From Actinomycetes bacterium (GTDB taxonomy: Bacteria; Actinomycetota; Humimicrobiia; Humimicrobiales; Humimicrobiaceae), in NCBI GenBank assembly GCA_022396035.1, contig JAIOXO010000018.1, forward strand, positions 1 through 34,455: DNA of 34,455 nt, written 5' to 3'. The translations under genes and the position numbers were made by a program. Positions 7,320 through 27,026 of this stretch are shown here, in pieces (positions within the stretch are counted from its first letter, which is position 1; each line of letters starts with the position of its first letter). Under the pieces are notes generated by a model, which saw nothing but the letters and a program-made list of their open reading frames with translations, was not told where the DNA came from and made no database searches.

Positions 7320-7345
7320 TTTTTAAAAAAACTCCTTATAAAATT

Positions 7346-7921
7346 TTATACCATACCGCTGAATCCCATGAAAGCCATGGCCAGGAGAGCCGCAGTGATG
7401 AAAGCAATGGGCAGCCCCTTCATGGATTCAGGGCTTTCTCCCAGATCCAGTGTCTCCCTGATACCGGACATAATAATCAGAACCAGGCTGAAACCAACTC
7501 CAGCTCCCAGAGAACTTATGGTGCTCTGTAACACATTATAGCTTTCCTGGGAGTTAATCAAAGCTATACCCAGTACAGCACAGTTGGTGGTTATGAGGGG
7601 CAGGTATATACCCAGCGCATTATAAAGGATTATATTGGTTCTCCTTATGGTCAGCTCCACTATCTGAACCAGAGAAGCAATAACCAGGATATAAAGCACA
7701 ATCCTCATAAACTCTACATGGAAAGGTACCAGAAGGTAGTTGTAAATAACAGTAGTAGAAACAGAGGCCAGAAGCATTACAAAAGTAACCGCAATACCCA
7801 TGCTTATGGCATTGGATAACTTTTTGGATACTCCAAAAAACGGACATAACCCTAAAAACTTGGCCAGTACCATGTTGTTAACTATGGCCATAGCTATAAA
7901 AATGGAAAATAAATTATTCAT
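7346..7921 (-). CDS. rnfA: Rnf complex membrane subunit RnfA
   Basis: A 191-residue, six-helix membrane protein. It has the paired cysteines C26 (GLCPFFG) and C114 (TTNCAVLG) which, with the matching pair in RnfE, hold a membrane [2Fe-2S] cluster in Rnf/Nqr structures. Length and topology match RnfA. It overlaps the end of rnfE by 8 bases, showing translational coupling. It provides half of the pseudo-symmetric membrane core through which electrons cross and ion transport is coupled. Confidence 0.96.
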   Translation of the reverse strand: MNNLFSIFIAMAIVNNMVLAKFLGLCPFFGVSKKLSNAISMGIAVTFVMLLASVSTTVIYNYLLVPFHVEFMRIVLYILVIASLVQIVELTIRRTNIILYNALGIYLPLITTNCAVLGIALINSQESYNVLQSTISSLGAGVGFSLVLIIMSGIRETLDLGESPESMKGLPIAFITAALLAMAFMGFSGMV

Positions 7922-8588
7922 TATCCAACACTCCTATCCATCTAAATACTGCCAGCAGAGCGCCGATTACCAGAAAAGCTCCCGGGGGTGACACGAAGAA
8001 ACCCAGGGGACTGGTGGATAATATCGGTATCCTGAACAGCTGAAAACCAAATACGGCCAGGCCTCCTGTACCCAGTATCTCCCTGAACAAAGCAATAAGT
8101 ATCAGGGCCAGGGTAAAGCCTAAACCTATTCCAAAAGCATCAGCAATAGACATCACTATGCCGTTCTTGGAAGCAAACACCTCTGCCCTGCCCAGTATAA
8201 TGCAATTGACCACAATCAGGGATAAATAAATCCCCAGAGATTCATATAGCGGAGGGATATATGCCTCAAATAACAGGCTCAATATGGTTACAAAAGTAGC
8301 TATAATAACTATAAATATAGGAATCCTTACCAGATCTGGTATGGCATTTCTAAGCAGAGATATAATTATATTGGCCCCCAGCAATACAAATATAACTCCC
8401 GCTCCCATGCCCAGAGCATTATCTATGGTTCCGGTTACCGCCAGGGTAGGACACAATCCCAAAGCAAGCACAAATACAGGGTTAGAGAGTACTATCCCCT
8501 TGGCAAACTCTTTCCAGAACCCTGAACCTTTTTTGGTCTCCGGAACGCATTTCCCGCAGCTGCTGCATCCATTTATTTCATCATTCAT
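7914..8588 (-). CDS. rnfE: Rnf complex membrane subunit RnfE with N-terminal Cys motif
   Basis: A 224-residue, six-helix membrane protein homologous to RnfA, with C46 (GLCPTLAVT) and C129 (VVNCIILG) as the membrane [2Fe-2S] ligands. The recognisable RnfE core begins around residue 24 (FWKEFAKGIVLSNPVF). Ahead of it lies a short extra segment with C8-x2-C11-x2-C14 (GCSSCGKC) that I do not know from standard RnfE. The start is the only reasonable ATG, 12 bases after rnfG. The extra cysteines could bind metal or a small cluster on the cytoplasmic side; this is inference. Confidence 0.95.
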   Translation of the reverse strand: MNDEINGCSSCGKCVPETKKGSGFWKEFAKGIVLSNPVFVLALGLCPTLAVTGTIDNALGMGAGVIFVLLGANIIISLLRNAIPDLVRIPIFIVIIATFVTILSLLFEAYIPPLYESLGIYLSLIVVNCIILGRAEVFASKNGIVMSIADAFGIGLGFTLALILIALFREILGTGGLAVFGFQLFRIPILSTSPLGFFVSPPGAFLVIGALLAVFRWIGVLDNE

Positions 8589-8600
8589 TGCCGGTTATCC

Positions 8601-9131
8601 TTACTTTAAAACCTTTATCTTTTCTTCCATAGTTTGTTTTATGGCAGAAGTCACTGCTTCCGAGCTAATAGTTGCTCCTGAAATAGCATCAATTTCTCCG
8701 CCTGCCGAAGACAGCCCAACCTCCTGGGCTGACAGACCTTCAAACTGCCCGGTAAAAGCATCCCCGGTTACCCTGCTTCCCAGGCCCGGGGTTTCGGTAT
8801 GGCTTACAATGCTTACATCCTTTATATTCAAATCAGCATCCAGCCCCACCATTATACTTATCTCGCCGCCATAACCGTTGCCGCTGGCCAGAAAAGCGTA
8901 GCCTATCTCCTCCTGTCCATCCAGCACGGTATAAATCTCCTGTTCATAATTGAAATCAGTCATCTGGGGATAAATTTGTTCCAGCATTTCTATTATTTCT
9001 GCATTTTTCCTGGCTTCCACAACCGGCGAAGTCATGCTGTTTAACACCATAAGCAAGGTGACTGAAACCAGTACCACCACCGTTAATAGAATTATGGGAT
9101 ATGCTTTTGTCTCCTTAAATTTCTCAAGCAT
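8601..9131 (-). CDS. rnfG: Rnf complex FMN-binding subunit RnfG
   Basis: A 176-residue protein with one N-terminal membrane helix (about 11-31) and an extracytoplasmic FMN-binding domain. The covalent flavin attachment motif is DAISGATISS (about 148-157), with FMN expected on T154 through a phosphoester bond made by ApbE. HTETPGLGS at 111-119 is the other conserved block. It lies four bases after rnfD. In the complex it passes electrons across the outer face between RnfA/E and RnfD. Confidence 0.96.
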   Translation of the reverse strand: MLEKFKETKAYPIILLTVVVLVSVTLLMVLNSMTSPVVEARKNAEIIEMLEQIYPQMTDFNYEQEIYTVLDGQEEIGYAFLASGNGYGGEISIMVGLDADLNIKDVSIVSHTETPGLGSRVTGDAFTGQFEGLSAQEVGLSSAGGEIDAISGATISSEAVTSAIKQTMEEKIKVLK

Positions 9132-9135
9132 TTCT

Positions 9136-10086
9136 CTAAGCTGCTTCCTTTTTTTGAAAGCCGAACGGCTTCCTCTTTAAATATTTATCTATAAGTGGCG
9201 TAAAGGCATTCATTATTAATATAGAGTACGCTACTCCCTCGGGTAAAGCCCCGAACCTTCTTATCAAAACGGTAAGCAGGCCCAAACCTACCCCAAATAT
9301 TATCTTGCCATTGGAGGTGGTGGGAGAAGTAACATAATCGGTTGCCATAAAAAAGGCACCTATCATAAGTCCGCCTGCCAGTATACTGAACAATGGATCA
9401 CTGCCAAAAACATAACTTAACAGGGCCACAGTCCCAATATAGAAAACTGGAATTCGCCATTCTATAATCCTGAAGGCAAGAAGAAATATGCCTCCCAATA
9501 TTATAAGCAGTGCCGATGTTTCACCGATAGAGCCGCCGGTATTTCCAATAAACATATCCCAGTACAGGCTGGCCTTGCTGCCTTCATGGGCAAAACTCTG
9601 GCCCAGGGGGGTTGCGGTAGTAACCGCATCAGCATTAAAACCACTGGGAGCCACCCAGGTAGTCATTTGCTGGGGAAAAGAAACCGCAAGGAATGCCCTG
9701 CCCCCCAGAGCAGGATTAAATATATTATGTCCCAGCCCGCCAAAGGCTTCTTTTACCACAGCAATAGCAAATATAGCTCCTACTACCACCATCCATATGG
9801 GCATTCTGGGAGGTAAAACCAGGGCAAACAGAATGCCGGTAATAACCGCGCTTCCATCATTTACAAACTGCTTTTTACGAAACTTCTTTATTGCCAGCTC
9901 GGTTAAAAAACAGGTAATAACACTGGCTAAAATTATATAAACAGCAGATAAGCCGAAAAAGTAAATTCCAGCCCCCATGGGAAGCAGTAGAGCTATAACC
10001 ACCATATACATAAGTTTAGTAGTGGAAAAGCCTTTCCACAGGTGAGGTGAGTGCGATATCAGTATTTTATCTTTGTCTATATCCAT
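9136..10086 (-). CDS. rnfD: Rnf complex membrane subunit RnfD
   Basis: A 316-residue polytopic membrane protein of the NqrB/RnfD family. The first conserved block is SHSPHLW (11-17). GGLGHNIFNPALGGRAF (116-132) follows, then DAVTTATPLG (153-162), where T159 fits the covalent FMN site equivalent to the Thr of SGAT in NqrB. The helix-rich C-terminus carries YVTSPTTSNGK. It follows rnfC after a 54-base AT-rich gap. With RnfG it carries electrons through the membrane and is thought to form the ion pathway. Confidence 0.96.
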   Translation of the reverse strand: MDIDKDKILISHSPHLWKGFSTTKLMYMVVIALLLPMGAGIYFFGLSAVYIILASVITCFLTELAIKKFRKKQFVNDGSAVITGILFALVLPPRMPIWMVVVGAIFAIAVVKEAFGGLGHNIFNPALGGRAFLAVSFPQQMTTWVAPSGFNADAVTTATPLGQSFAHEGSKASLYWDMFIGNTGGSIGETSALLIILGGIFLLAFRIIEWRIPVFYIGTVALLSYVFGSDPLFSILAGGLMIGAFFMATDYVTSPTTSNGKIIFGVGLGLLTVLIRRFGALPEGVAYSILIMNAFTPLIDKYLKRKPFGFQKKEAA

Positions 10087-10140
10087 ATTCTTGTTCCTAG
10101 ATTTTATAAGTATAAATTAAACTTTTTTTTAGTTCAAATT

Positions 10141-11496
10141 TTATTTTTTATCTGCAATCTTCTTCTTGCCAGTTTTAATATAGCCCACAATAGGTATATT
10201 GGCAGGACATACATAGGCACAGGAACCGCATTCTATGCAATTTGATATATAATACTGCTTGCACTCCTCATGCCTTCCTTTTTTAACATACTTGGGATAC
10301 ATCAGCGGCATCAAATCCATGGGACAGGCAGCCACACAGCGGGCGCATTTTATACAATTCTGTTCCCGGCCCGCCTTTCCCTGCTTTATGAGCACACAGT
10401 TAAGGCCTTTGGTAACCGGATAACCGGTATCATTAATAGCTACACCCATCATGGGCCCTCCCAGTATAACATGATACTTATCCCTGTCCTGCAGTACACA
10501 ATAATCAACCAGTTCCGAAACAGGGGTGCCTATCCTGGCTAAAAGATTCTTGGGTTTCTGGAAAGCTCCGGTAACAGTTATTATTTTCTCTACCAGCGGC
10601 TTGCCTTCCAGAACTGCCTCTGCTACTGATTTACAGGTAGCCACATTATTGACTACCACCCCCACATCCATGGGCAGACCTCCCATAGGGACCTCACGGC
10701 CTACCAAAGATTTTATCAATGTCTTTTCAGCCCCCATGGGGTATCTGGAAGGAAGTGAAACCACATCCACCTTATCCTCCAGGCCCATTTCTACCACCAG
10801 CCTGTGCATATACTCTATGGCATCCGGTTTATTATCTTCAATTGCAATATAGAGGTTCTCCGGCTTAAGTACCTGGCTAATTATAAACATACCCAGCAGG
10901 ATATGCCTTCCAAATTCAAGCATAACCCGGTGATCGCTGGTAATAAAAGGCTCACATTCACAACCGTTTAAAATAAAGGTATCAATCTTTTTTTCCGGTG
11001 GAGGTGACAGCTTAACATGGGTGGGGAAAGCTGCGCCTCCCAGCCCTACCAGACCTGCTTCCCTGACCTTGCCCAGAATATCCTTGGCAGGAATTTTTTC
11101 GATCATAGCCAGAACCTGCCTTAAGTCATCTATGTCAGCAATTTTCTGTATAACCTCCATATCTATCCATTCATCCTGGCCATCCGATTCAATGGTTAGC
11201 GCCTCTACCACTGCGCCGCTTACCGGGTTTAAAACTTGCTTGTTCCTGGATACCTTCCCTGAAACCGGCGCATGTATAGGGGCCGAAACAAACTTGTCAG
11301 TATCAGCTATCTTCTGCCCTGTCTTTACTGTATCTCCCCTCTTCACTATAAACTCGCAGGGAGCCCCAATATTTTGCTGTACAGGTATTACAGCTACCTG
11401 GGGAAGGGAAATTTTTTCGACCGGTTCTTCTTCAGTTATTTTGTTTTCGGGAAGCTTTACCCCGGCAAAGGCGCTTCTTTTTTTAATTATGCTCAT
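10141..11496 (-). CDS. rnfC: Rnf complex NADH-binding subunit RnfC
   Basis: The N-terminal biotinyl-lipoyl-like domain includes APIHAPVSGKV. A flavin/NADH-binding Rossmann-type domain with GLVGLGGAAFPTHVK follows. The C-terminus has two 4Fe-4S motifs, CIKCARCVAACP and CIECGSCAYVCP. The length (451 residues) is normal for RnfC of anaerobes. An ATG at 11496 is chosen; a TTG four codons upstream is also open but the ATG sits behind a GGATAGAG ribosome site. RnfC is the site of NAD+ reduction. The stop of apbE is 15 bases upstream of this start, linking the flavin transferase to the complex it serves. Confidence 0.95.
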   Translation of the reverse strand: MSIIKKRSAFAGVKLPENKITEEEPVEKISLPQVAVIPVQQNIGAPCEFIVKRGDTVKTGQKIADTDKFVSAPIHAPVSGKVSRNKQVLNPVSGAVVEALTIESDGQDEWIDMEVIQKIADIDDLRQVLAMIEKIPAKDILGKVREAGLVGLGGAAFPTHVKLSPPPEKKIDTFILNGCECEPFITSDHRVMLEFGRHILLGMFIISQVLKPENLYIAIEDNKPDAIEYMHRLVVEMGLEDKVDVVSLPSRYPMGAEKTLIKSLVGREVPMGGLPMDVGVVVNNVATCKSVAEAVLEGKPLVEKIITVTGAFQKPKNLLARIGTPVSELVDYCVLQDRDKYHVILGGPMMGVAINDTGYPVTKGLNCVLIKQGKAGREQNCIKCARCVAACPMDLMPLMYPKYVKKGRHEECKQYYISNCIECGSCAYVCPANIPIVGYIKTGKKKIADKK

Positions 11497-11511
11497 AACT
11501 CTATCCAATCT

Positions 11512-12513
11512 TTAATTTTTAACATACTTAGATAAACCTTCGGACCTGAATATATTTCTATCATTATCAATTATTAGGGCCTCTACCCCATTCAGGCTGT
11601 TAACCAGGTCTATACCCTGCTGTGGCCCCAGTACAAAAATGGAGGTAGAAAGGGCATCAGCATCCATACAGCTGGTAGAGATAATAGTGGAACTGATACA
11701 CTGATTGGCAGAATAACCGCTTCGGGGATCAATCAGATGATGGGCCTCCCGGTCAGGATCAAAATACCTCTCGTAATTACCAGAGGTGGTTACCGCCTGG
11801 CCAGAAACCTTGAAAGTTTCAATGCTTTCCTGCTTATTGTCCGGATTCTCTAAGGCTATGGTCCAGAAACTTCCATCCGGCTTCTTACCGGTGGTCATTA
11901 TATCCCCACCTGCATTTACAAGAGCATACTCAATTCCCTTAGATTTTAATACTCCCATGGCTTTATCCACTGCATAGCCTTTGGCAATTCCCCCCAAGGT
12001 AATTTTCATACCTTCTTTTTCAAAACTTATACTATCTGCACCCATTATTATATAGTTAGAACCTACCGCTTCCATGGTCTGGTCTATCTTTTCCTGCTGT
12101 ACCTGTTCCGTTTCCTTCCACAGTCCTGCTTCCCATAATTCTAATAAGGGTTGTATGGTTATGTCAAAAGCTCCCTGGCTGATCTGGTAATAGTTCTTGG
12201 ATTCAGTTACCAGTTCTACCAGTACAGGTGAAGGATCTTTTATGAAACCTTCCTCATTTAATATTGAAATTTCACTGGCAGGGTCATAGGTGTTAGCGAT
12301 ACTTTCTATCTGTATCATCTTCTCAAATGCTGCTTCCATGGCATCATCTGCCTGCTGATTATCGGTAGCGTAAACAGTCATGGTCACCACCGTGCCCATT
12401 AATTCCCTGCTCTGTTCAAAACGGTCAAAGGTTTTAAGGTTGCAGCCAACAGAAAGGCAAACCAGCATTATTAAAAATAACCAGAAAATAGATTTTAATC
12501 TGTTAATAATCAA
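11512..12513 (-). CDS. apbE: ApbE-family FAD:protein FMN transferase lipoprotein
   Basis: ApbE transfers FMN from FAD to a Thr in flavoproteins such as RnfG and RnfD. A TTG at 12513, behind GGGAG/AGGA, gives a compact signal peptide ending in the lipobox LSVGC and a 333-residue lipoprotein; the alternative GTG at 12576 adds 21 residues unlike a signal peptide. Family landmarks are MGTVVTMTVYA, LGGIAKGYAVDKAM, LVNAGGDI, HHLIDPRSGY and MDADALSTSIFVLG, whose Asp/Thr residues bind the metal and FAD. Its place directly before rnfC fits modification of the Rnf subunits. Confidence 0.93.
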   Translation of the reverse strand: MIINRLKSIFWLFLIMLVCLSVGCNLKTFDRFEQSRELMGTVVTMTVYATDNQQADDAMEAAFEKMIQIESIANTYDPASEISILNEEGFIKDPSPVLVELVTESKNYYQISQGAFDITIQPLLELWEAGLWKETEQVQQEKIDQTMEAVGSNYIIMGADSISFEKEGMKITLGGIAKGYAVDKAMGVLKSKGIEYALVNAGGDIMTTGKKPDGSFWTIALENPDNKQESIETFKVSGQAVTTSGNYERYFDPDREAHHLIDPRSGYSANQCISSTIISTSCMDADALSTSIFVLGPQQGIDLVNSLNGVEALIIDNDRNIFRSEGLSKYVKN

Positions 12514-12681
12514 AGTTCCTGCTCCCGGTAAAACCGGCACCCCAGGCAATGCCGGCCTATTTCTAATCAGCCCCACTAAAGCCCTGGGCCTCTAAACTGC
12601 CTGGATGGCCAGGGCTACTGCCTGTTTATGCCAATAGCTGATTCAGATTAATAACAATCCTAGTAATTATAATATAAATAA

Positions 12682-17001: not shown

Positions 17002-17790
17002 TCAAAAAATATATCCATCTTTCTTAATCCCCAGCCTGGTTAAGGCAAAATCGTATTTTATCGGGTCCCGGGGACAGATATTTTTAAAAGCAAGGGTTAT
17101 CTCCATTGCGGTTTTCATGTCAGCCTGTTTTCTGCAGGTAAGTCCCAGCTGTTTGGATATCCTATGCATATGAACATCCAACGGCACTATAAGCTTGGAA
17201 GCTTCTATCCCCTGCCAGCCGCCAGGATCTACATCATCTTCTCTTACCATCCATCTCAGATAAAGATTTAGTCTCTTTAAGGCGCTACTGCCGCTAGCTG
17301 AAGGAAACAGGCTGTTACAAAAGCTCCCCGGCCTGCAGGTAACCCTGCTGATAAATTTCAACAGCGGCTGCAGCACATTCTCCTGGCGGACGCTGTAGCC
17401 TTCCAAAAAACAGTTATTAAGCGAACCATATTTTTTTAAGGCATTCCGGAGACAGGCCAGCATAAACTCTACTTCATCCTCTGTGGTAAACCGGTGCTTG
17501 AAACCGGAAAACATACCTTTTATATTACTGTCGCTTAAATCAAGCAAAAAATCATGGGGGGAAGGCCCCAGCCGGTCCAGTACAGCCGAAACACTTTTTA
17601 TAATCTGGGCTACCCGACCGTAAGCCAGGGAAGAAGCAATAAAACCCACAATCTCCCTGTCTTCGGCACGGGGATAATTGTATAAAAACTGCAGAGGATC
17701 CGGACTTACATATTTTCTATGGTTATATCGGTCATAAAGCTTATCCAGCTTCTGTTTATCCACCATAACCGGCTTAATCCAGCTGGTCAT
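17002..17790 (-). CDS. TIGR02757 (DUF2400) family protein
   Basis: A 262-residue alpha-helical protein matching the DUF2400/TIGR02757 family. DPLQFLYNYPRAEDREIVGFIASSLAYGRVAQI is the family's N-terminal signature (two neighbouring blocks). The centre has RRCNLYLRWMVR-like text (LKRLNLYLRWMVREDDVDPG) and the C-terminus PRDPIKYDFALTRLGI. Some annotations link the family to helix-hairpin-helix DNA glycosylases, but no biochemical role is established. The ATG at 17790 overlaps the end of the flavodiiron gene by 17 bases; a second ATG at 17766 avoids the overlap. Either way it is coupled to that gene. Confidence 0.85.
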   Translation of the reverse strand: MTSWIKPVMVDKQKLDKLYDRYNHRKYVSPDPLQFLYNYPRAEDREIVGFIASSLAYGRVAQIIKSVSAVLDRLGPSPHDFLLDLSDSNIKGMFSGFKHRFTTEDEVEFMLACLRNALKKYGSLNNCFLEGYSVRQENVLQPLLKFISRVTCRPGSFCNSLFPSASGSSALKRLNLYLRWMVREDDVDPGGWQGIEASKLIVPLDVHMHRISKQLGLTCRKQADMKTAMEITLAFKNICPRDPIKYDFALTRLGIKKDGYIF

Positions 17791-18949
17791 GCTTGGTCTT
17801 GATCTCTGCAGCCAGATTATCCAGCAGATTAAAATCCTCTTCCCGGGGCAAGCCTTTTATTATTACCGGTTCCAGTATTTCTGCCTTCAGCGTGGAAACC
17901 AGATCAGCAATTATTTCCTTGGTTTTACCTCCCCATCCATAGGATCCAAACAGAGCCAGGTATCTGGTTTTGGGCCTTAAGGCTTTAATCAGGTAAGCAG
18001 CATATACCGCTGCCGGATGGGGCCCGGCCAGTACGGTAGGAGTAGCTAAAGCAATGGTTGCTGCATCCACTGTTGCCATGGCCAATTCTCCAATATCGGC
18101 GCCGGTTAGATTGAAAGTCTTTACCGTTATTCCCCTGTTCTCCAGCTCACCTTTAAAATGGTCCACCATTTCTTTGGTGCTTCCATGCATGGAAACATAG
18201 GCCAGTACTACCTCGTTCTTTACCTTATCCGAGGTCCAGTCCCGGTAAGCTTCAAGTATAAAATCGTAGTGGTTATAAATCTGGCCATGGCTGGGAGCTA
18301 TAATATCCAGCTCCAATTGCTGAACTTTATCCAGATGCTTTTTGGCCAGATTGGCAAAAGGCATCATTATCTCTGCATAATACCTCTTGGCATTTTCGTA
18401 GATTAACTGCTGGTCGGTCACATAAAGGTCATCAAAGGAATAATGTGAACCCAGATAGTCGCATGTAAACAATATCTTATCCTGTTTAAGATAAGTAAAC
18501 ATAGTTTCCGGCCAATGAACCCAGGGGGCTATCATAAATTCCAGGGTTTTGTCTCCCAGGGAAAGCGAGGAGCCATCTTCTACCACCAAGAATTTTTCTT
18601 CTTCTATATGCAGCAGATCCATCAGCATCCCCTTACATTTTTCATTGGTTACCACTTTTGCTTCCGGATATTTTTCTAAGACATGAGGAATGGAACCCGA
18701 ATGGTCCTGCTCGGCATGATTGGATATTACATAGTCTATCCGGTCTACGCCCAGCTGGTCCAGATGTTTAAAAAGCACATCCCTTTTAGCCGGATCTACG
18801 GTATCAATTAGTGCAGTTTTATCGCTCCCCTTAATTAAATATGCATTATAGGTAGTGCCATAGGGCAAAGGGATCAGCTCATCGAACAGCCTTCGGTCCG
18901 GATCCTTGGCCCCAACATAAAATATATTCGGCTTTATTTTCTCAGCCAT
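17774..18949 (-). CDS. fprA: Flavodiiron protein (FprA-type oxygen/NO reductase)
   Basis: A 391-residue A-type flavoprotein. The N-terminal beta-lactamase-like domain carries the diiron ligands H78-x-E80-x-D82-H83 (NHAEQDH), H145 (WVHWPE), D164 (FTCDYLGSH) and a His in APSHGQIY. The flavodoxin domain starts around 252 (VVLAYVSMHGSTKEM) and binds FMN. There is no rubredoxin extension, so a separate electron donor is needed. It reduces O2 to water (or NO to N2O), protecting oxygen-sensitive enzymes. It has an excellent ribosome site (AGGAGG) just after a hairpin separating it from ferritin, suggesting its expression can be tuned apart from the upstream genes. Confidence 0.94.
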   Translation of the reverse strand: MAEKIKPNIFYVGAKDPDRRLFDELIPLPYGTTYNAYLIKGSDKTALIDTVDPAKRDVLFKHLDQLGVDRIDYVISNHAEQDHSGSIPHVLEKYPEAKVVTNEKCKGMLMDLLHIEEEKFLVVEDGSSLSLGDKTLEFMIAPWVHWPETMFTYLKQDKILFTCDYLGSHYSFDDLYVTDQQLIYENAKRYYAEIMMPFANLAKKHLDKVQQLELDIIAPSHGQIYNHYDFILEAYRDWTSDKVKNEVVLAYVSMHGSTKEMVDHFKGELENRGITVKTFNLTGADIGELAMATVDAATIALATPTVLAGPHPAAVYAAYLIKALRPKTRYLALFGSYGWGGKTKEIIADLVSTLKAEILEPVIIKGLPREEDFNLLDNLAAEIKTKHDQLD

Positions 18950-18973
18950 ATTCGCCTCCTGTAATATATTAAA

Positions 18974-19007
18974 ATTATAATCGCACCATTTCGGGTGCGA
19001 TTATAAT
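18974..19007 (-). terminator. Strong hairpin between ferritin and flavodiiron genes (terminator or attenuator)
   Basis: Perfect inverted repeat: 18974-18987 pairs with 18994-19007, 14 base pairs, six-base loop. On the transcribed minus strand it is followed by TTTTAATATATT, giving terminator character, and then within about 20 bases by the fprA ribosome site. It may terminate most ferritin transcripts with partial read-through into fprA, or protect a processed end. Confidence 0.65.
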
Positions 19008-19037
19008 ATATAACTTTTTATATCTTTTTAAAAACCA

Positions 19038-19553
19038 TTATTCTTCAGCAGAAGCAGGCGGGGTATACACCCTTTTGCCCAGTTCCTGGTCTATCATAAA
19101 TAAACCATTTCCAGTATCACTTACCAGCTTGAGCTTTTTAACAATACCATCAGCAGTAGACTCTTCTTCAACCTGTTCCGCTACATACCATTGCAAAAAG
19201 TTGCTGGAAGCATGGTCTTTCTCATCTGCCGCCAGGTCTACCAGGTTATTTATGAGACTGGTAACCTTCTGCTCATGAGTATAAACATTTTCCATAACTT
19301 CCAGTGGGGATTTCCATTCTTTAGCAGGTGCCTGGATATCCGTTAAAGTTACTCTGCCGCCTCTTTCGTTTACAAAATCAAAGAACTTCATGGCGTGAAA
19401 TAACTCTTCCTGGGCCTGAACCCTCATCCAGTTTGCAAAACCGGAAAGGTCCACAGACTCAAAATAAGAGCTCATAGCCAGATAAAGATATGAAGAATAC
19501 ATCTCTGCATTAATTTGCTCATTTATAGCTGTTTCCATTTTTTTACTAATCAT
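19038..19553 (-). CDS. ftnA: Non-haem ferritin
   Basis: A 171-residue four-helix ferritin. Ferroxidase residues are in place: E17 (NAEMYSSY), Y24, E50 and H53 ([10 protein letters not shown]), E94 (HEQKV) and the later E/Q residues around [13 protein letters not shown]. No haem-ligating Met of bacterioferritin is apparent. It oxidises and stores iron, limiting Fenton chemistry when oxygen or peroxide enters. It starts four bases after the desulfoferrodoxin stop, so the two are one unit. Confidence 0.95.
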
Positions 19554-19557
19554 TTAT

Positions 19558-19932
19558 CTATCCTTTCCACAATCCATGAAGGTTACAATATTCTCTGGCA
19601 TAGAGGTCCTTACTGTTTACACAGAATTCAGCCTCTGGTGCATCTCCCGGCTTTAGAAACTTCCGGTAAGTCTTATCGCCATCCATCAGTTCAATCCATT
19701 CAATATAGTGTTTCTCCTCCATGGGATGGGCTACACTGCCTACTTTGACTTTTACCATATCCCCGTTTCTTTCTATTACCGGGACATGTTTTTCTTTGGC
19801 AGCATCAACCGTATTTTCCTTAAACAGTTTCATCGGCTCTTCGCAGCAAACCAGCTCTCCGTCACCCTCATGGAGAACCTCCACTATATTGCCGCATACT
19901 TCGCATTTGTATATTTGCATTTTTTTGGTCAT
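19558..19932 (-). CDS. dfx: Desulfoferrodoxin (two-iron superoxide reductase)
   Basis: A 124-residue 2Fe-superoxide reductase. The N-terminal desulforedoxin-like domain binds Fe through C10-x2-C13 and C29-C30. The catalytic domain has E47-K48-H49 (AAKEKHVPV), H69 (SVAHPM), H75 (EKHYIEWI), and C116/H119 (EYCNLHGLW). It reduces superoxide to peroxide without releasing O2, the standard anaerobe solution. Peroxide is then handled by the peroxiredoxin encoded 10 bases upstream. The usual donor rubredoxin is not encoded in the window. Confidence 0.96.
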
Positions 19933-19942
19933 ATCCTACCTC

Positions 19943-20584
19943 CTATATTTTTTTATGACAGAACCACCAGTCAAAGCAGTCATATTTCTTCATTCGGTCG
20001 CCAATAGCCCTTTCGTCGGTAGGAGGAGGAACAATAACCTCATCCTCTATCAGCTCATTATGGGGCCAGTTGGCAGGCATGGCTGCTCCATTTTTCTCTC
20101 CTACCTGGAAAGCCTCTATCATTCTTAATATTTCATCCATATTTCTTCCCAATTCCTGAGGATAATAGAGCATAGCCCTTATTTTGGCATTAGGATCAAC
20201 AATTAATACCGCTCTAACCGTATTGGTACCCTTTCCTGGATGTATGAAACCCAATTTTTTGGATATAGTTCCGGTATCATCAGCAATTACCGGAAACTTG
20301 ATTTCCACATCCAGATTTTCCTTAATCCACTGTATCCACTTTATATGGGAAAAAACCTGGTCAATACTTAGACCGATAAGTTCACAGTTCATTTTCTTGA
20401 ATTGATCATACCTCTTTTGGAAAGCCACAAACTCTGTAGTGCATACAGGGGTAAAATCCGCAGGATGGCTGAAAAGAATAAACCATTTGCCTGCATAATC
20501 AAGGGGCAGCTTAATTTTACCATGGGTAGTTGATACTTCCATTTCGGGGAATACTTCGCCTATCAAGGGCATTCTCTCTTCCAT
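19943..20584 (-). CDS. Prx6-type (archaeal-like) thioredoxin peroxidase
   Basis: A 213-residue peroxiredoxin. The peroxidatic site is [12 protein letters not shown] with C48, and TVRAVLIVD supplies the conserved Arg. Near the C-terminus it has C203-FDWWF-C209, the paired cysteines typical of Aeropyrum-type enzymes that resolve the sulfenate. It reduces hydrogen peroxide and organic peroxides. The ATG at 20584 is behind a perfect GAGGAGG ribosome site. It is the first gene of the prx-dfx-ftn(-fprA) oxidative-defence unit and has a good promoter upstream. Confidence 0.94.
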
Positions 20585-20745: not shown

Positions 20746-21333
20746 ATGAAAAGAACCATCCCTATATTTTTATTTTGGGCAATGCTTGCACTAATGCTAT
20801 CCGGGTGTGCCCAACAATCCCCACAGTTACAATCCACCGATATAGACCAGTACTCCATCCAGGACATAAATATCGATGGAGACATATCCGAAAATGAATA
20901 CCGGTATTCTTTAAATGACAGTGCCACCGGGCTTACTGTATACTGGTCCAATGATGACAGCAATGTGTACCTGGCAATAAGATACCAGGAACCAGGCTGG
21001 GTAGCGGTGGGTTTTAATCCCAGCTTTGCCATGAAGGATGCTAACATAATAATGATGGCCTTTCAGGACAGGCAGGCTATGGTAAGGGATGATTATGGTA
21101 CCGGTAACTTCAGCCACCAGCAGGATGAGCAACTGGGCGGAACCAATGATATTGTAGAATATGCAGCTACCAGCGAAAGTTTTGAGCTGGTTATACCCCT
21201 GGACTCCCAGGACCAATACGACCAAGAATTGCAGCCGGGTAACAGCTACAAACTGATACTGTCCACCGGCAGCAGCTATGATTTTGATACCAAGCATTCA
21301 AAAAGATCAACAGCTACCATAAGCCTGGATTAG
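20746..21333 (+). CDS. DOMON-domain lipoprotein, probable haem-binding
   Basis: A 195-residue lipoprotein: signal peptide with lipobox LSGC (C21), then a DOMON-like beta-sandwich. GWVAVGFNPSFAMKDANIIM (84-103) matches the domain's core motif with M96 as one possible haem ligand. H184 near the end (DTKHSKR) is positioned to be the second, as in the cellobiose dehydrogenase cytochrome domain. DOMON domains outside the membrane bind haem b or sugars and pass electrons. It starts behind AGGAG, and its stop overlaps that of the convergent 2-TM gene by four bases. Haem binding is inference. Confidence 0.8.
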   Translation: MKRTIPIFLFWAMLALMLSGCAQQSPQLQSTDIDQYSIQDINIDGDISENEYRYSLNDSATGLTVYWSNDDSNVYLAIRYQEPGWVAVGFNPSFAMKDANIIMMAFQDRQAMVRDDYGTGNFSHQQDEQLGGTNDIVEYAATSESFELVIPLDSQDQYDQELQPGNSYKLILSTGSSYDFDTKHSKRSTATISLD

Positions 21334-21521
21334 CCAAAATAAAAGATTAGAGCCAGGATAGCATGTATGGTGGCCAGGCTTATCCCCGCTATACCTGCAA
21401 TCCGGTGAATCTTGTAATACACCTTTTTCCTCTTGATCCTGAAGCCAGCCAGGCCGATGAGGGCAACCAGTATTGAAAGATACGCGGTTATGCCCAGAGG
21501 CAGAATATAGCTGTAAATCAT
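21330..21521 (-). CDS. Small 2-TM membrane protein with a His-x13-His pair
   Basis: A 63-residue membrane protein with two hydrophobic helices (about 5-27 and 40-62) joined by a basic loop (RIKRKK). The second helix carries H39 and H53, the 13-residue spacing used by cytochrome b helices to face haem irons on each side of the membrane. GGAG precedes the ATG, and it starts eight bases after the Moco-fold gene, so it is the last gene of that operon. It resembles truncated ferric-reductase/cytochrome-b-like helices; it may need a partner to complete haem coordination. It matches no named family that I recognise. Confidence 0.65.
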   Translation of the reverse strand: MIYSYILPLGITAYLSILVALIGLAGFRIKRKKVYYKIHRIAGIAGISLATIHAILALIFYFG

Positions 21522-21529
21522 TATTTCTC

Positions 21530-22711
21530 CTATTCAAATCTCTGCTGGGGTTGGTCTCTTCCTGCATAATCAGACCAGCCCCTGCTTTCCCAATATCCTT
21601 TATAGTCATAATCTACAAATTCTATACGGTTAATCCATTTTGGCCACTTCATTCCATACTTGGCAGGCACCACCATCCTGACCGGAAAGCCATGCTCTGC
21701 ACTGAGCTGACGGCCATTCATATGATAAGCAAGCATTACCCCCGGCTGCCGGGCTTCTTCTATGGTTATACTGGTTGAATATCCGTCCAGGCAGTAAAAA
21801 ACTACTTCCACCGCCTGATCACTGTAGCCAGCCATATCCATAATATGGCTAAAAGGTACCCCGGTCCATATTGCATTGCCAATCAGGGAACCGCCCTGGG
21901 GATTGGAAATAGTTTCCAGCGTAGCATATACCGATTCCTGGGGCATATTTATAAGCTGCTGGTAATCCAGAGTCACGCTATTTGCCACCATCCCCTCTAT
22001 CTCCAGGATCCAGTCCTGCTTATCAACCTCGGGTATAGGGCCTATAGCCAGGACAAACATACTCTGCTGGGAAACAAATTCCATCATTTCTTCATCCGGA
22101 CCCTCTTTTATATCCGCCAGCTGCCTTAACTCTGAAATAAAATTAAACAGGACCGGATTTTTTACCCAGTTATAGGTGGGGCCGTTATCCTGCACAATTT
22201 TTAAAACCCCATCCTGGGAAGGCACCATATATTCCCCTTCCCTTTTCCACACCAGATAGATGCCCTTATACAGGTCATCTGCACTAAAATTGGCAGCATA
22301 AAGATCGGTAGCATATACAGTTACATCCTGTGCCTGATCCAGTAAGTCCAGATCAGCCATAATATGCTTAAGGTCTATTCCGGTATATTCAATATCCACT
22401 TCTTCGCCATCCGAGCGGACCCCGTGTATGGTTCTGGTTTCTGTCAGGTGTCCGTAGTTTTCAATAACCTGGCTAAAAGTTAGTTCTTTTTCATCCTTTA
22501 GTAAACCATTAAACAGCAACTTGTAATCAGGTATGGCCTGGGCAAATTGAACATCAGTTTCAATCTGGCTGATATCTATATCCTGGGGATTAAAACCAGC
22601 CGGCTCCTGCTGGTTTTTCTGCCTCTGGTTGCTGACAATAAAATAGGACAGGAAGGCCACCAGGGCTATTATGACCAATGTAATTGAAATGTAAAATAAT
22701 TTCTTGTTCAT
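21530..22711 (-). CDS. Membrane-anchored protein with tandem sulfite-oxidase-type Moco folds, Mo-ligand Cys replaced
   Basis: A 393-residue protein with an N-terminal membrane anchor (about 5-26). The C-terminal domain (about 230-366) is a molybdopterin oxidoreductase (SUOX/YedY) fold: ILEIEGMVANSVTLDYQQL, WTGVPFSHIM, CLDGYSTSI, HGFPVRMVVPAKYGMKWPKW. Where the family has TLEC-SN with the Mo-ligand Cys, this reads TLETISN, with Thr267 (codon ACT). The preceding region (about 61-195) looks like a second, diverged copy (YKLLFNGLLKDEKELTFSQV, then YTGIDLKHIM), also without that Cys. The ATG at 22711 overlaps the upstream stop as ATGA. It may bind the cofactor differently or be structural. Confidence 0.8.
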   Translation of the reverse strand: MNKKLFYISITLVIIALVAFLSYFIVSNQRQKNQQEPAGFNPQDIDISQIETDVQFAQAIPDYKLLFNGLLKDEKELTFSQVIENYGHLTETRTIHGVRSDGEEVDIEYTGIDLKHIMADLDLLDQAQDVTVYATDLYAANFSADDLYKGIYLVWKREGEYMVPSQDGVLKIVQDNGPTYNWVKNPVLFNFISELRQLADIKEGPDEEMMEFVSQQSMFVLAIGPIPEVDKQDWILEIEGMVANSVTLDYQQLINMPQESVYATLETISNPQGGSLIGNAIWTGVPFSHIMDMAGYSDQAVEVVFYCLDGYSTSITIEEARQPGVMLAYHMNGRQLSAEHGFPVRMVVPAKYGMKWPKWINRIEFVDYDYKGYWESRGWSDYAGRDQPQQRFE

Positions 22712-23013
22712 GATAGGGCAAAATAAGTAAAACCAATTATAAAAATCAGTCCGCATAGAAGCAGCAACAAGTCCACGCTCCTGCCCTTGATTCTGTTCCT
22801 GGCCAAGGCAAACCTTATGCTTAGGCCGGCATGCATGGTTACCATCACCAGAAAACTGATATTTATATATACCTGGTGCAGCAAATTAGCAATGCCCCGG
22901 GTAAAGAAAGTAAAATAGCCTACCTGCCGGTAGCCGGTAATCATAAGTACTATAAATAAGGGCATGAGAAGGTAACCCAGGATCCGGTTAAGCTTTCGTA
23001 AAAATTTTTCCAT
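22708..23013 (-). CDS. Small 3-TM membrane protein, probable b-haem subunit
   Basis: A 101-residue membrane protein with three hydrophobic segments (about 11-27, 45-69, 80-99). The middle helix carries H46 and H61, a His pair at cytochrome-b-like spacing. Its stop overlaps the start of the Moco-fold gene (ATGA) and it starts one base after the FNR-like gene ends, so the three are tightly coupled. By analogy with MsrQ/YedZ, which passes electrons from a flavin reductase to the Moco enzyme MsrP, I infer it relays electrons across the membrane. It is much shorter than MsrQ and not clearly homologous. Confidence 0.7.
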   Translation of the reverse strand: MEKFLRKLNRILGYLLMPLFIVLMITGYRQVGYFTFFTRGIANLLHQVYINISFLVMVTMHAGLSIRFALARNRIKGRSVDLLLLLCGLIFIIGFTYFALS

Positions 23014-23014
23014 A

Positions 23015-23689
23015 TCAATCGTATCCAGGAAAGTAGTCTTTCTTTATATTCCGGTTCCCTATACCCTGATCCCTTAACTGCTGTTCAATACCTTTTACCA
23101 TACCCATAGGGCCGGATACAAAATACTGCTTTTCACTGAAATCTTTTAGCCCCTGCTTCAAGTTATCTGAATCTATCCTGTCTGGGATTATGTTCATTTT
23201 AAAACTTTTTCTTCTACCCTCCAGTCCATCAAGTTCATCTTTGAAAACCGGAGGCTTATCTTGAGTAGCATAAAATAATTGTATATTCCCCATCTTTTCC
23301 CTGTAATCCAGGTCAAGTAGAATAGACCTAAAAGGGGTGATCCCTATTCCCCCGGCTATCATTACAGCTTTTCTCCTATATTCGGTTAACCTGAAATTTC
23401 CCCTGGGACCGGCAGACTGGATACTGTCCTGAGGCTTTAACTGCATCAGTTTCCGCTTAAAGGAGCTTCCCTCTTCTTCAAGTATTCTGGTAGTCACCAT
23501 CACCACCTGCTCATGGGGAGCAGAAGCAATGGAAAAAAATCTTTTTATCCCCCTGCTGTCCGGATTTTCATGGGGCAGGATAAACTGCATATACTGCCCT
23601 GCCTGCCAGGTCAGGCTGCCCTGGGGACTGAATATAAATGAATATACCCCATCGGTATTTTTCATGCGTTTTTCTAAAATCAGCTTCAC
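23015..23689 (-). CDS. FNR-like FAD/NAD(P)H oxidoreductase
   Basis: A 224-residue cytoplasmic flavoprotein of the ferredoxin-NADP reductase superfamily. R50-FFSIAS is the FAD-binding motif; GPRGNFRL is the second FAD contact. GGIGITPFRSI (113-123) and FVSGPMGMVKG bind NAD(P)H. The C-terminus KKDYFPGYD is typical of the stand-alone group. No 2Fe-2S domain is present, so electrons probably pass from FAD to a protein partner. It precedes the 3-TM His-pair gene by one base, making that protein the most likely acceptor. Confidence 0.88.
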   Translation of the reverse strand: MKLILEKRMKNTDGVYSFIFSPQGSLTWQAGQYMQFILPHENPDSRGIKRFFSIASAPHEQVVMVTTRILEEEGSSFKRKLMQLKPQDSIQSAGPRGNFRLTEYRRKAVMIAGGIGITPFRSILLDLDYREKMGNIQLFYATQDKPPVFKDELDGLEGRRKSFKMNIIPDRIDSDNLKQGLKDFSEKQYFVSGPMGMVKGIEQQLRDQGIGNRNIKKDYFPGYD

Positions 23690-23696
23690 TTTTCTC

Positions 23697-24983
23697 CTAA
23701 TCTTCTACAAGCCAGCCCACAAGATCTATGATCTGCTCTGAGCTGACTAAAGATGCGGTTTGTCTGCTCTGTAAATTATGTATCTGTATATCTGTATTTT
23801 CAACAAATTCATAATTGCTATCATAATTATATTTTAAATAAGCTACCTGTTCTCCGTGGGGAGAGAATATGGGTTTTGCCGCCCCCAGGTCAAATTCAGT
23901 AATCTTTTTATGTTGCTGCCCCTCCAAGACATATATATCCCCTGAAGGCATACTGTAAGCTAAGGTACCATACCGGGGAACCCCTACATAGCATAATTTA
24001 CCCTCCGCAACATCAGGCTGCTGCTCCCTTAGCTGGGAATCGGAGGTCACCTGCTCTATGCTCTGCTCCTGAAGTATATAGCGGTATATATCTCCATCCT
24101 CTTCAAAATCTCCCAATATTTCAAATACTATGCTGTTTTCCCATAACCTGAAATTGGAAAAGCTCTGTACCTTCTCTACCTGATCAAAGTAGTCTACATC
24201 CATGATCTGGGTAATATCTGCAGATTCTAAATCCATCAGGTAAACCTCTTCATTTATGGAGTAAATGTCAGTCTCGTCCTGGGCTGAACTATAAAAGCCA
24301 TGGTAAACTACTGCCAGTTGGCCATCAGGCAGAAAGAGTACCGGCTGCATGAAAGTTAATTTGGTAGCGCACATTCCTCCTATCCTGGGTATAACCTGTT
24401 TGACCTCTTTTGAATTCAGGTTATATACCTGTATCCAATCTGTATTATAGCTCTCGGCCCGGGGTTCTGGAGGAATATTTATCACCTCATAAGCCAGCAT
24501 TGATCCATCCGGTGACCATACCGGTTGTCCATAAACCTGTTTCTGTTCACCTTCAATACCCTCCCGGGTATAATCAAATTCAACTATCTGCTCCAGATCG
24601 CCGGTTTTAGTATCTATTAACGATAGGCTTCTATAAGCGCCCCTCCCTCCTTCAAAAAAAGAACAAACCAGCCATCTACCATCAGGGGATACGCTGTATA
24701 CCCTGCCCAGATTCCAGGGGTAATCTATATCCGAAAATATCAGTTCCCGGTCCGAGCCTTCAGTGCCTATACTATAAATATTGGCCACCCTGTGCTCAAA
24801 ATGGGTGGACTGGGCATCGATGCCAATCTCCAGATATATTATTCTATATTCTGGCCCGGTTTCCTGAACTGCTGGTGGCTCTTCCTCCGGCTCCGGGGTC
24901 ACCGGCTCAACTACCTGAGGGCTGCAGCCCACCAGCACTAAAAAAAGTATGGTCCATAAACCTGTAATTAATTTTTTCATCAA
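23697..24983 (-). CDS. Lipoprotein with TolB-like beta-propeller repeats
   Basis: A 428-residue lipoprotein: signal peptide and lipobox LVGC (C20), then a Pro/Glu-rich spacer. The rest is a beta-propeller with PD40/TolB-type repeats: SVSPDGRWLVCSFF, VWSPDGSMLAYEV, LFLPDGQLAVVY, IFSPHGEQVAYLK, and inter-blade ID/DI strands. These are ligand- or protein-binding scaffolds with no catalytic motif. It is the first gene of the minus-strand operon leading through FNR, 3-TM, Moco-fold and 2-TM genes, seven bases ahead of the FNR gene, so it may be an outer-face partner of the complex. Confidence 0.82.
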   Translation of the reverse strand: MMKKLITGLWTILFLVLVGCSPQVVEPVTPEPEEEPPAVQETGPEYRIIYLEIGIDAQSTHFEHRVANIYSIGTEGSDRELIFSDIDYPWNLGRVYSVSPDGRWLVCSFFEGGRGAYRSLSLIDTKTGDLEQIVEFDYTREGIEGEQKQVYGQPVWSPDGSMLAYEVINIPPEPRAESYNTDWIQVYNLNSKEVKQVIPRIGGMCATKLTFMQPVLFLPDGQLAVVYHGFYSSAQDETDIYSINEEVYLMDLESADITQIMDVDYFDQVEKVQSFSNFRLWENSIVFEILGDFEEDGDIYRYILQEQSIEQVTSDSQLREQQPDVAEGKLCYVGVPRYGTLAYSMPSGDIYVLEGQQHKKITEFDLGAAKPIFSPHGEQVAYLKYNYDSNYEFVENTDIQIHNLQSRQTASLVSSEQIIDLVGWLVED

Positions 24984-25078
24984 TCAAAACCCTTTATAAG
25001 AGTTGACATATTAATTACATTATAACCATAAAATCAAAAGTCGAAAGCAATCAAATTTTAAAAAAATAAACTTATCCT

Positions 25079-25101
25079 AACAAAATCAGTCCCTCATACG
25101 T
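25079..25101 (+). promoter_or_regulatory. Possible ECF-sigma type promoter
   Basis: The AAC at 25079-25081 and CGT at 25099-25101 are separated by 17 bases, resembling ECF promoters (-35 with AAC, -10 with CGT). It precedes the Gln/Cys-rich gene by about 36 bases, and an ECF sigma gene lies just downstream. A TATAAT at 25107-25112 offers a sigma-A alternative without a good -35. Short motifs like these occur by chance, so this is tentative. Confidence 0.3.
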
Positions 25102-25136
25102 TTATATATAATAAACAGAGACGAAAGGAATATAAG

Positions 25137-25469
25137 ATGATTAAGAAAACAGTAACAGCAGTGGCAATAGCAGCGGTAGTCCTTCTAAGTTCTGCGGGCT
25201 TTATATATGCCTACAATAATGAGAATCAGGAACAAAACCAGACCGCTTTTACCGACTGTATCTCCACCCAGGGCCAGGCTTTATGCCAGCAGGAACGCCA
25301 TGAATGCAGATACCAGTACAACCAGGACGCTCAGGATTGTGAAGGGCAGTACCAGCAGCTTAGAAACCAGGAGAGATTAGCCCAAGACGGACAGTCCCAG
25401 CAGCCGCAACAGGAGTGCAACCAGTTAAGATCTAACCAGTCAGGCCAGAGCAGAAGGGGCAGAAAATAA
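25137..25469 (+). CDS. Secreted Gln- and Cys-rich small protein
   Basis: A 110-residue protein with a clear signal peptide or anchor (about 4-26). The mature part is hydrophilic, rich in Gln, Asn, Arg and Glu, with cysteines C41, C50, C57, C68 and C94. The internal pattern C-Q-Q-E-R-H-E-C and D-C-E-G-Q suggests disulfides or metal binding. It has no recognisable domain; the basic tail SRRGRK ends it. AAGGA precedes the ATG. Its stop overlaps the next start as TAATG, so it is made together with the DUF4405-like membrane protein. Function unknown. Confidence 0.72.
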   Translation: MIKKTVTAVAIAAVVLLSSAGFIYAYNNENQEQNQTAFTDCISTQGQALCQQERHECRYQYNQDAQDCEGQYQQLRNQERLAQDGQSQQPQQECNQLRSNQSGQSRRGRK

Positions 25470-25777
25470 TGAGGTTGAAAATTAAGTTAAAAATAATTAC
25501 CGATATTTTTTTACTATTTTTTGCACTTATCAGCGCCATAACCGGAGTCCTGCTGCTGGCCACCCCTTCCGGTCCCGGTACCCGGGCCGGGTTTGAGGTT
25601 GGCGCCAGTATACTGGATCTCACCTCAAAAAGTTCCTTGAAATTGTTCCATGACTGGAGCTCCATATTGCTCATAGCTATGGTTGTTTTTCACCTGATGC
25701 TTAACGGCAGCACCATAGCCTGTTACTTTAAGAAATATTTTAGGACGCTAAAGAATAATAGCTGTGAAAAGATATAA
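25469..25777 (+). CDS. DUF4405-like 2-TM membrane protein with a His-x13-His pair
   Basis: A 102-residue protein with two membrane helices (about 9-31 and 63-82). The segment between them is Gly/Ser-rich (ATPSGPGTRAGFEVG). The second helix carries H61 and H75 in KLFHDWSSILLIAMVVFHLMLNG, the DUF4405-type H-x13-H pattern seen in small putative haem-binding membrane proteins. Translation is coupled to the secreted Cys-rich protein (TAATG). It shares the His spacing of the two small membrane proteins in the operon on the other side, suggesting a common haem-based role. Confidence 0.72.
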   Translation: MRLKIKLKIITDIFLLFFALISAITGVLLLATPSGPGTRAGFEVGASILDLTSKSSLKLFHDWSSILLIAMVVFHLMLNGSTIACYFKKYFRTLKNNSCEKI

Positions 25778-25822
25778 ATAAATAAGGTATAATATCTGGT
25801 AAAAACAAAACAAACACAATCA

Positions 25823-26383
25823 TTGGACAATTTAGACTTATACCTTAGACAGTATAGAAAAAGCAATGACCGGATCTGGTTTGAAAAGATTTACAACCGG
25901 TTTATGCCTCAACTCTTCCGGTACTGTTATTACCGTACCGGAAGTAAGCAGGAAGCAGAAGATCTCTGTAGTGAGCTGGCCTTAAGGGCTTACAATAACC
26001 TGGGCCGTAAAAAATTTAACAGCCGGCAATTTTTTGGGTGGCTTTATCGGGTAGCCAGAAATCTGCTCATCGATTATTACCGTAAACAGGGCAGGTCAGC
26101 CGTGCAGTCCCCTCCGGATAAAGAGCAAGTATCCAGTGAAAACAGTGGTTTAATTGATAACAGCCCTTATCTTTCTATTGAACTGGGAATAAAAAATGAA
26201 AAACTGTTTAAAGCCATGTCCAGGCTCACCGATCTGCAGAGAGAGGTAGTAATTTTAAAATTTATAGAAGATTTTGACTATAAACTGATATCCAGGATAA
26301 CCGGTAAAAGGCAGAATACCTTAAGGGGCATCGTATTCAGGGCCCTGGATGGCTTAAAAAGATATATGCAGGAATATGAATAA
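25823..26383 (+). CDS. ECF-type RNA polymerase sigma factor
   Basis: A 186-residue sigma-70 family protein. Region 2 (about 10-85) includes RQYRKSNDRIWFEKIYNRF, AEDLCSELALRAY and QFFGWLYRVARNLLIDYYRK. Region 4 (about 128-183) has LTDLQREVVILKFIEDFDYKLISRITGKRQNTLRGIVFRAL as helix-turn-helix (two adjacent blocks). There is no region 1 or 3, as in ECF factors. The best start is a TTG at 25823; no ribosome site is visible, but a TATAAT at 25788-25793 gives a short leader. It overlaps the next gene by eight bases, a usual sigma/anti-sigma arrangement. Confidence 0.88.
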   Translation: MDNLDLYLRQYRKSNDRIWFEKIYNRFMPQLFRYCYYRTGSKQEAEDLCSELALRAYNNLGRKKFNSRQFFGWLYRVARNLLIDYYRKQGRSAVQSPPDKEQVSSENSGLIDNSPYLSIELGIKNEKLFKAMSRLTDLQREVVILKFIEDFDYKLISRITGKRQNTLRGIVFRALDGLKRYMQEYE

Positions 26384-27026
26384 AAAACATATACAAAATA
26401 TAACCGACAAATGCCTGAGCCTTATGGAAAAAGGCTACAGCCTGTCATACTGCCTTGAAAAATACAGCTACTGCCGGGACACTCTGGAACCTTACCTTAA
26501 AACTGCGATGCAGACTAAGGGCTTAAAGTCACTGCAGCCTGATGAAAATTTCAGGAAGTCTACTTTGCAGCACATATTAAGTCAGGTTCCGCAAAAAAGA
26601 CCCGGGCCAAGATGGCTCAAGCCGGCAATTGCTTTTATTGCTGCGTTTATGATTGTCTCTTTCTCTTTTGCCGGCACCGCTTATGCATCCCAGGACAGTA
26701 TACCCGGGCAGGCGTTTTATCCGGTTAAAAGAACCGTAGAAGAGGTGCAGCTATTTATTTATCCCCCTGCTCAAAAGGCAAAACTTCACCTTAATATGCT
26801 AAACAGGAGAATAGAAGAAGCCAGACAGGTTATGGCATCCGAAGATACTCCCCAGCAGCTGGCTGACCAGGTTATGCAAAATATTGACCAACAATACGGC
26901 CAGTGCAAGCAATATGGATGCCTGTCTGCAGAAAACCAGGACCAGATTATAGAAGATATTGAAAGCATAAACAGCCGATATCAGAAACGATACGGCCAGA
27001 AAAACCAAAACCGGCATAATCAGTAG
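26376..27026 (+). CDS. DUF5667 membrane protein, putative anti-sigma factor
   Basis: A 216-residue protein with a cytoplasmic N-terminal region of about 80 residues (with C13, C26, C33). One membrane helix follows (about 83-103), then an extracytoplasmic DUF5667 domain. ASQDSIPGQAFYPVKRTVEEVQLF is the family signature in two blocks, followed by AKLHLNMLNRRIEEARQVM and a Gln-rich tail. DUF5667 proteins are commonly found beside ECF sigma genes and are assumed to sequester them. The coding overlap with the sigma gene supports this. Its stop overlaps the convergent M48 peptidase gene by seven bases. Confidence 0.83.
   Translation: MNKKHIQNITDKCLSLMEKGYSLSYCLEKYSYCRDTLEPYLKTAMQTKGLKSLQPDENFRKSTLQHILSQVPQKRPGPRWLKPAIAFIAAFMIVSFSFAGTAYASQDSIPGQAFYPVKRTVEEVQLFIYPPAQKAKLHLNMLNRRIEEARQVMASEDTPQQLADQVMQNIDQQYGQCKQYGCLSAENQDQIIEDIESINSRYQKRYGQKNQNRHNQ

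Follow-up and report, generated by a model that had tools for sequence, protein, structure and literature searches.

What do a flavin reductase, two small membrane proteins with conserved histidine pairs and a protein of the sulfite oxidase fold have to do with each other? The question is raised by contig JAIOXO010000018.1 of assembly GCA_022396035.1, analysed here over a stretch of 34,455 nucleotides (the window), which belongs to the genome (G000; 1.6 Mb, 97.8% complete) of an uncultured sediment actinobacterium of the Humimicrobiaceae. A run of five genes on the minus strand, from position 24983 down to 21330, encodes a beta-propeller lipoprotein, an FNR-like flavin oxidoreductase, a histidine-pair protein with three transmembrane segments (3-TM), a membrane-anchored protein with two SUOX (sulfite oxidase) folds in tandem, and a second histidine-pair protein with two transmembrane segments (2-TM), with gaps of 1–8 bp or an overlap of 4 bp between them. 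The original prediction had read these genes, together with a DOMON lipoprotein gene that faces them, as a co-occurring module of five families that carries electrons from NAD(P)H through flavin and b-haem to an outer protein with molybdenum cofactor (Moco), in the manner of MsrPQ. All genes it listed were confirmed in the window as described, with intact frames, and orthologues lie in the same order in the congener G002 (L021), being 54–83% identical. Our analysis revealed a smaller unit: the conserved core consists of the 3-TM gene and the tandem SUOX gene, is found across two phyla, and encodes a SUOX protein with threonine at the place of the molybdenum-ligating cysteine.

Relatives of the SUOX protein were sought in Humimicrobiaceae genomes and, more widely, across 84,980 species genomes. 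Full-length relatives turned up in five Humimicrobiaceae genomes besides the host, making six, and in one Spirochaetota metagenome-assembled genome (MAG), at 51% identity; the named relatives are Actinomycetota MAGs, among them Candidatus Humimicrobium oleiphilum. In all seven genomes, six of Humimicrobiaceae and one of Spirochaetota, the 3-TM gene stands directly upstream of the tandem SUOX gene, and beyond these core genomes only weak matches to the 3-TM family were obtained among 397 genomes of the phylum. In the window the two genes occupy 22708–23013 (3-TM, 101 aa) and 21530–22711 (SUOX, 393 aa) of the minus strand and share a 4 bp ATGA overlap. Because the orthologue alignment begins at residue 16 of the listed open reading frame, and because of this overlap, we take residue 16 as the true SUOX start on sequence grounds.

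Around this core lies a variable shell. The 2-TM gene (21330–21521, minus strand, 63 aa), 8 bp after the SUOX gene, and the DOMON gene (20746–21333, plus strand) are tail-to-tail with stops overlapping by 4 bp, and they co-vary: both are present in G000, G002 and G007 (3/7), and neither was seen beside the core in G001, G003, G023 or the spirochaete. In G000, G001 and G002 the core is bordered by the FNR gene (23015–23689, minus strand, GTG start), and G007 has a partial match at the contig end (3–4 of the seven). Of the neighbourhoods read, those of G000 and G002 alone had the gene for the PD40/TolB-like beta-propeller lipoprotein (23697–24983, minus strand; PD40 domain match), separated from the FNR gene by 7 bp, and the genes for a secreted Cys-rich protein and a DUF4405 protein. 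In several relatives the core thus stands without FNR, 2-TM, DOMON or propeller genes at its side, and the five families cannot be called a fixed module. The neighbourhood comparison by which the proposed module was to be judged has refuted it; in G023 the FNR gene stands beside a superoxide reductase gene instead.

The flavoprotein itself, an FNR-like NAD(P)H:flavin oxidoreductase, lacks a 2Fe-2S domain and carries RFFS-type and GGIGITP motifs; the FNR NAD-binding match (1e-7; PF00175) was above cut-off, and FAD_binding_6 remained below it. As its gene lies 1 bp upstream of the 3-TM gene, as in the window, or overlaps it in G000, G001 and G002, co-translation is suggested, and FNR is a plausible, not obligatory, electron donor to the core. 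The same spacing (in G007 the match is partial and at a contig end) tells against a rival explanation, in which FNR is the donor for a cytoplasmic superoxide reductase or peroxidase, unrelated to the membrane proteins, and oxygen-defence genes have come together in the array by chance. That explanation draws on G023, where the closest FNR gene lies 75 bp upstream of the desulfoferrodoxin gene and also upstream of a DUF2400 gene, on a contig other than that of the 3-TM/SUOX pair, as well as on G003, where the core has no adjoining FNR. The window, too, has homologues of the desulfoferrodoxin and DUF2400 genes of G023, past its peroxiredoxin gene. We regard the chance array as a serious possibility, if one of clearly less than even probability. 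A second FNR paralogue was observed in G001 (L106:2403–3086), near genes for a 71-aa protein and a radical SAM protein.

The SUOX protein matched PF00174 (Oxidored_molyb) in two stretches (1.8e-53), and its predicted structure has two SUOX domains behind one N-terminal helix, with a mean predicted local distance difference test (pLDDT) score of 80.6. Domain 1 alone barely passes Pfam (24.2 bits, cut-off 24); the fold is backed by Foldseek (E 5e-15), with matches to SorA, SoxC, YedY, sulfite oxidase and PruR. Domain 2 resembles the sulfite dehydrogenase SorA, SoxC, YedY/MsrP and sulfite oxidase, and PruR more weakly. In SUOX enzymes molybdenum is held by two dithiolene sulfurs and one cysteine (PMC7759655). 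We read this ligand position in an alignment and tree of 63 SUOX proteins and found Cys in 54, Ser in two archaeal proteins (L055 and L067) and Thr in exactly seven, all of the present group, so that Thr267 replaces the ligating Cys in 7/7 tandem proteins. The cysteine was most likely lost once, because the seven Thr proteins form a single clade (support 0.91) nested within Cys-bearing proteins. An additional cysteine, Cys307, 40 residues after Thr267, is invariant in all seven and occurs otherwise only in two Cys-bearing proteins of the Hydrogenothermaceae, the sister clade; the rest of the pterin-pocket motif (H340, G341, R345, K355) is retained. A normal Mo site in the tandem protein appears unlikely from these residues, and the predicted electron transfer to a normal Moco protein finds no support, the ligating Cys being missing in every member. 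The twin-arginine (Tat) motif RRxF, present in five of six sister proteins, is found in 0/7 of the Thr clade. Its absence was rejected as proof that Moco is missing, since several Cys-bearing SUOX proteins likewise have no RRxF; it is suggestive of a difference from the sister clade and is not unique to the Thr group.

The membrane partner, too, has conserved residues. In all of 11 3-TM sequences, which come from three phyla, H46 and H61 are kept, with a spacing of 15 residues within a single helix, and so is a TGY motif. The protein matched no Pfam family, neither Ferric_reduct nor DUF4405 included, and nothing among solved structures. A search of the viral structure library gave no meaningful match. 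In the Hydrogenothermaceae, where SUOX keeps its Cys, a homologous 3-TM gene with the same histidines and TGY lies directly upstream of the SUOX gene, at about 10 bp, in four of six cases (L074, L079, L081, L082), and comparison of the two by hhalign gave 76%, E 2e-5. As the Cys-bearing sister clade has the same pair, the 3-TM/SUOX pairing is probably older than the cysteine loss. The 3-TM protein may represent an unnamed minimal membrane cytochrome type paired with SUOX proteins, and the Hydrogenothermaceae proteins are possibly an unnamed small cytochrome type. In two archaeal SUOX proteins (L047 and L050) the C-terminus is formed by a membrane domain that weakly resembles DUF4079 and b561, which suggests that SUOX domains joined candidate b-cytochromes more than once.

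The changed ligand allows different views of the SUOX protein. It could still be a Mo or tungsten (W) enzyme, with Thr267 or Cys307 as ligand, whose substrate for reduction would be an oxidised envelope component, for instance methionine sulfoxide. In agreement with this, all other pocket motifs are conserved, Cys307 is fixed in 7/7 and present in two Cys-bearing sister proteins, Ser and Asp ligands occur in the dimethyl sulfoxide reductase family (PMC7759655), and the host has Moco genes, in one cluster with FdhD and a tungstate-type transporter. The lack of RRxF in the Thr clade counts against it, with the reservation given above, and a SUOX enzyme with a Thr ligand was not found in the literature searched. 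Furthermore, G002 has the whole module and gave no match to MoaA, MoaC or MoeA; this argument is weakened, as G002 keeps an AFOR tungstoenzyme gene and the Moco genes of the host lie in one cluster, so that the gap may come from the assembly, and we did not use it as proof of Moco independence. We consider a surviving Mo/W enzyme rather unlikely. A Thr-for-Cys metalloenzyme whose thiol has perhaps moved to Cys307, fed by a mini-cytochrome of single-helix haem carriers (3-TM, with 2-TM where present), seems improbable.

A SUOX fold that has lost its Mo cysteine is known from PruR, which binds pterins (PMC13259868) and whose structures were among the Foldseek matches. The tandem protein could accordingly be a cofactor-free or pterin-binding sensor or scaffold that signals through 3-TM, with no redox catalysis. 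PruR, however, has Trp and not Thr at the Cys position, is a soluble periplasmic protein of one domain whereas the window protein has two in tandem, and pairs with DcpA-type regulators, to which the genes adjoining the core offer no counterpart. That the cysteine is kept in the cousin pairs of the Hydrogenothermaceae also speaks for a redox ancestry of the pair. A PruR-like role is, in our judgement, an unlikely one.

The two shell proteins beside the core offer candidate haem ligands of their own. H39 and H53 are invariant in the 2-TM protein, whose helices weakly resemble those of ferric reductases, b561 and DUF4405; homology with 3-TM was considered and none was found (hhalign 0.6%). DUF4405-type His proteins bind haem b (PMC11334425), and haem-binding DOMONs use a Met/His ligand pair 84–93 residues apart (PMC10784544, PMC10691727). 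In the DOMON lipoprotein (DOMON match 5e-14), Met96 and His184 are invariant in three sequences at a spacing of 88 and make it a candidate b-haem protein, these ligands being placed by motif and spacing only, as its structure prediction was poor (pLDDT 50). Judged from the ligands, haem in the His-pair proteins is plausible.

The core is set in an island of genes for peroxiredoxin (19943–20584), superoxide reductase (desulfoferrodoxin, 19558–19932), ferritin (19038–19553) and a flavodiiron-type protein (17774–18949), forming an oxygen-defence run at 17774–20584 on the minus strand. In five Humimicrobiaceae genomes a peroxiredoxin gene is found beyond the far end of the core, in G007 with a Fur-family gene between. 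Such surroundings suggest a role in defence against oxygen or against components of the envelope that have been oxidised. We therefore prefer, at about even probability, to read the core as an envelope redox pair in oxygen defence, with 3-TM as a wire feeding an altered, outward-facing SUOX protein. From the observed gene order, conservation, residue changes and phylogeny we infer haem, topology, direction of electron flow and function as follows. A 3-TM dimer, or 3-TM with 2-TM where the latter is present, would form a two-haem membrane wire of the MsrQ/PepSY type, and electrons, possibly donated by FNR, would pass via haems between paired helices to the outer, membrane-anchored SUOX protein, by analogy with MsrPQ. 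Descended from a Cys-ligated enzyme, and with its Mo site most likely lost or altered by the Thr exchange, this protein would serve either as a pterin-type redox carrier or as an enzyme with a changed ligand. In genomes that have them, DOMON and 2-TM could open a second way out for the electrons, resembling a CYBDOM (b561+DOMON) reductase divided between two proteins. The core pair resembles a known protein-repair system, and its chemistry is probably different.

Several observations weigh against the envelope redox pair in oxygen defence. The oxygen-defence neighbourhood was not seen in G023 or the spirochaete, and FNR is not beside the core in G003, G023 or the spirochaete. As the host has Moco genes, the SUOX protein may bind Mo or W, and a chicken sulfite oxidase with the C185S exchange has been crystallised (3hbg, in the Foldseek listing). 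Finally, no match to ferrochelatase or siroheme decarboxylase and no AhbD-level match was obtained in G000, G002, G007 or G023; with no known terminal haem-b enzyme found in the host genome, haem would need to be taken up from outside, unless the histidines serve another role. G003 gave strong matches to AhbD and siroheme decarboxylase. The host and G002, at least, encode several candidate haem proteins despite the missing match to a known terminal haem-b enzyme.

Of the MsrPQ-like chain, the part that fits is the two-gene core, which occurs in two phyla and has a Cys-bearing cousin pair in the Hydrogenothermaceae; the five-gene unit did not hold. As in MsrPQ, a methionine sulfoxide reductase with a membrane cytochrome of its own, the locus encodes an outward SUOX-fold protein next door to a His-rich membrane protein, has a flavin reductase gene close by and lies in an oxidative-stress setting. 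In contrast to MsrP, its SUOX protein has tandem domains, Thr for the Mo-ligating Cys and no RRxF in any of the seven members, and scores 62 bits against an NCBIfam MsrP cut-off of 207; the partner is a 3-TM protein outside Ferric_reduct, not of the six-helix MsrQ type. The Hydrogenothermaceae pair is alike in gene order and differs in that its SUOX protein has a single domain, keeps the Cys and mostly bears the Tat motif. CYBDOM likewise couples a His-pair membrane protein with a DOMON, and the candidate Met/His pair of the DOMON here has a fitting spacing, whereas in the window separate genes encode a 63-aa 2-TM protein and a DOMON lipoprotein. Small membrane proteins with conserved His pairs are also known from the DUF4405/FezC cytochromes, and a DUF4405 gene is nearby, but 3-TM has no match to DUF4405 and 2-TM only a weak one.

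The secreted Cys-rich protein of 110 aa (25137–25469, plus strand) is probably outside the core; it shows a weak match, below cut-off, to the bufferin BufA2. The adjoining DUF4405 gene (25469–25777, plus strand; DUF4405 5e-12) probably belongs to an adjacent cluster with an extracytoplasmic function (ECF) sigma factor: a plus-strand cluster at 25137–27026, common to G002, comprises the Cys-rich protein, the DUF4405 protein, the ECF sigma factor and a DUF5667 protein. An Rnf operon, complete from B, A and E through G, which has a flavin mononucleotide-binding domain, to D and C, lies at 6471–12576 of the window together with an ApbE flavin transferase gene.

In summary, the system is related to the SUOX/membrane-cytochrome type and has diverged from it, following MsrPQ-like logic without being MsrPQ. 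Its core consists of two genes, the shell around them varies, and the metal-ligand site is changed. Cysteine is regarded as a defining ligand of sulfite-oxidase-family enzymes. A clade from two phyla that has exchanged this cysteine and has a cytochrome-like membrane partner in common with its Cys-bearing cousins is a natural test of the role of the ligand, and also of how SUOX folds shift between enzyme, carrier and sensor.

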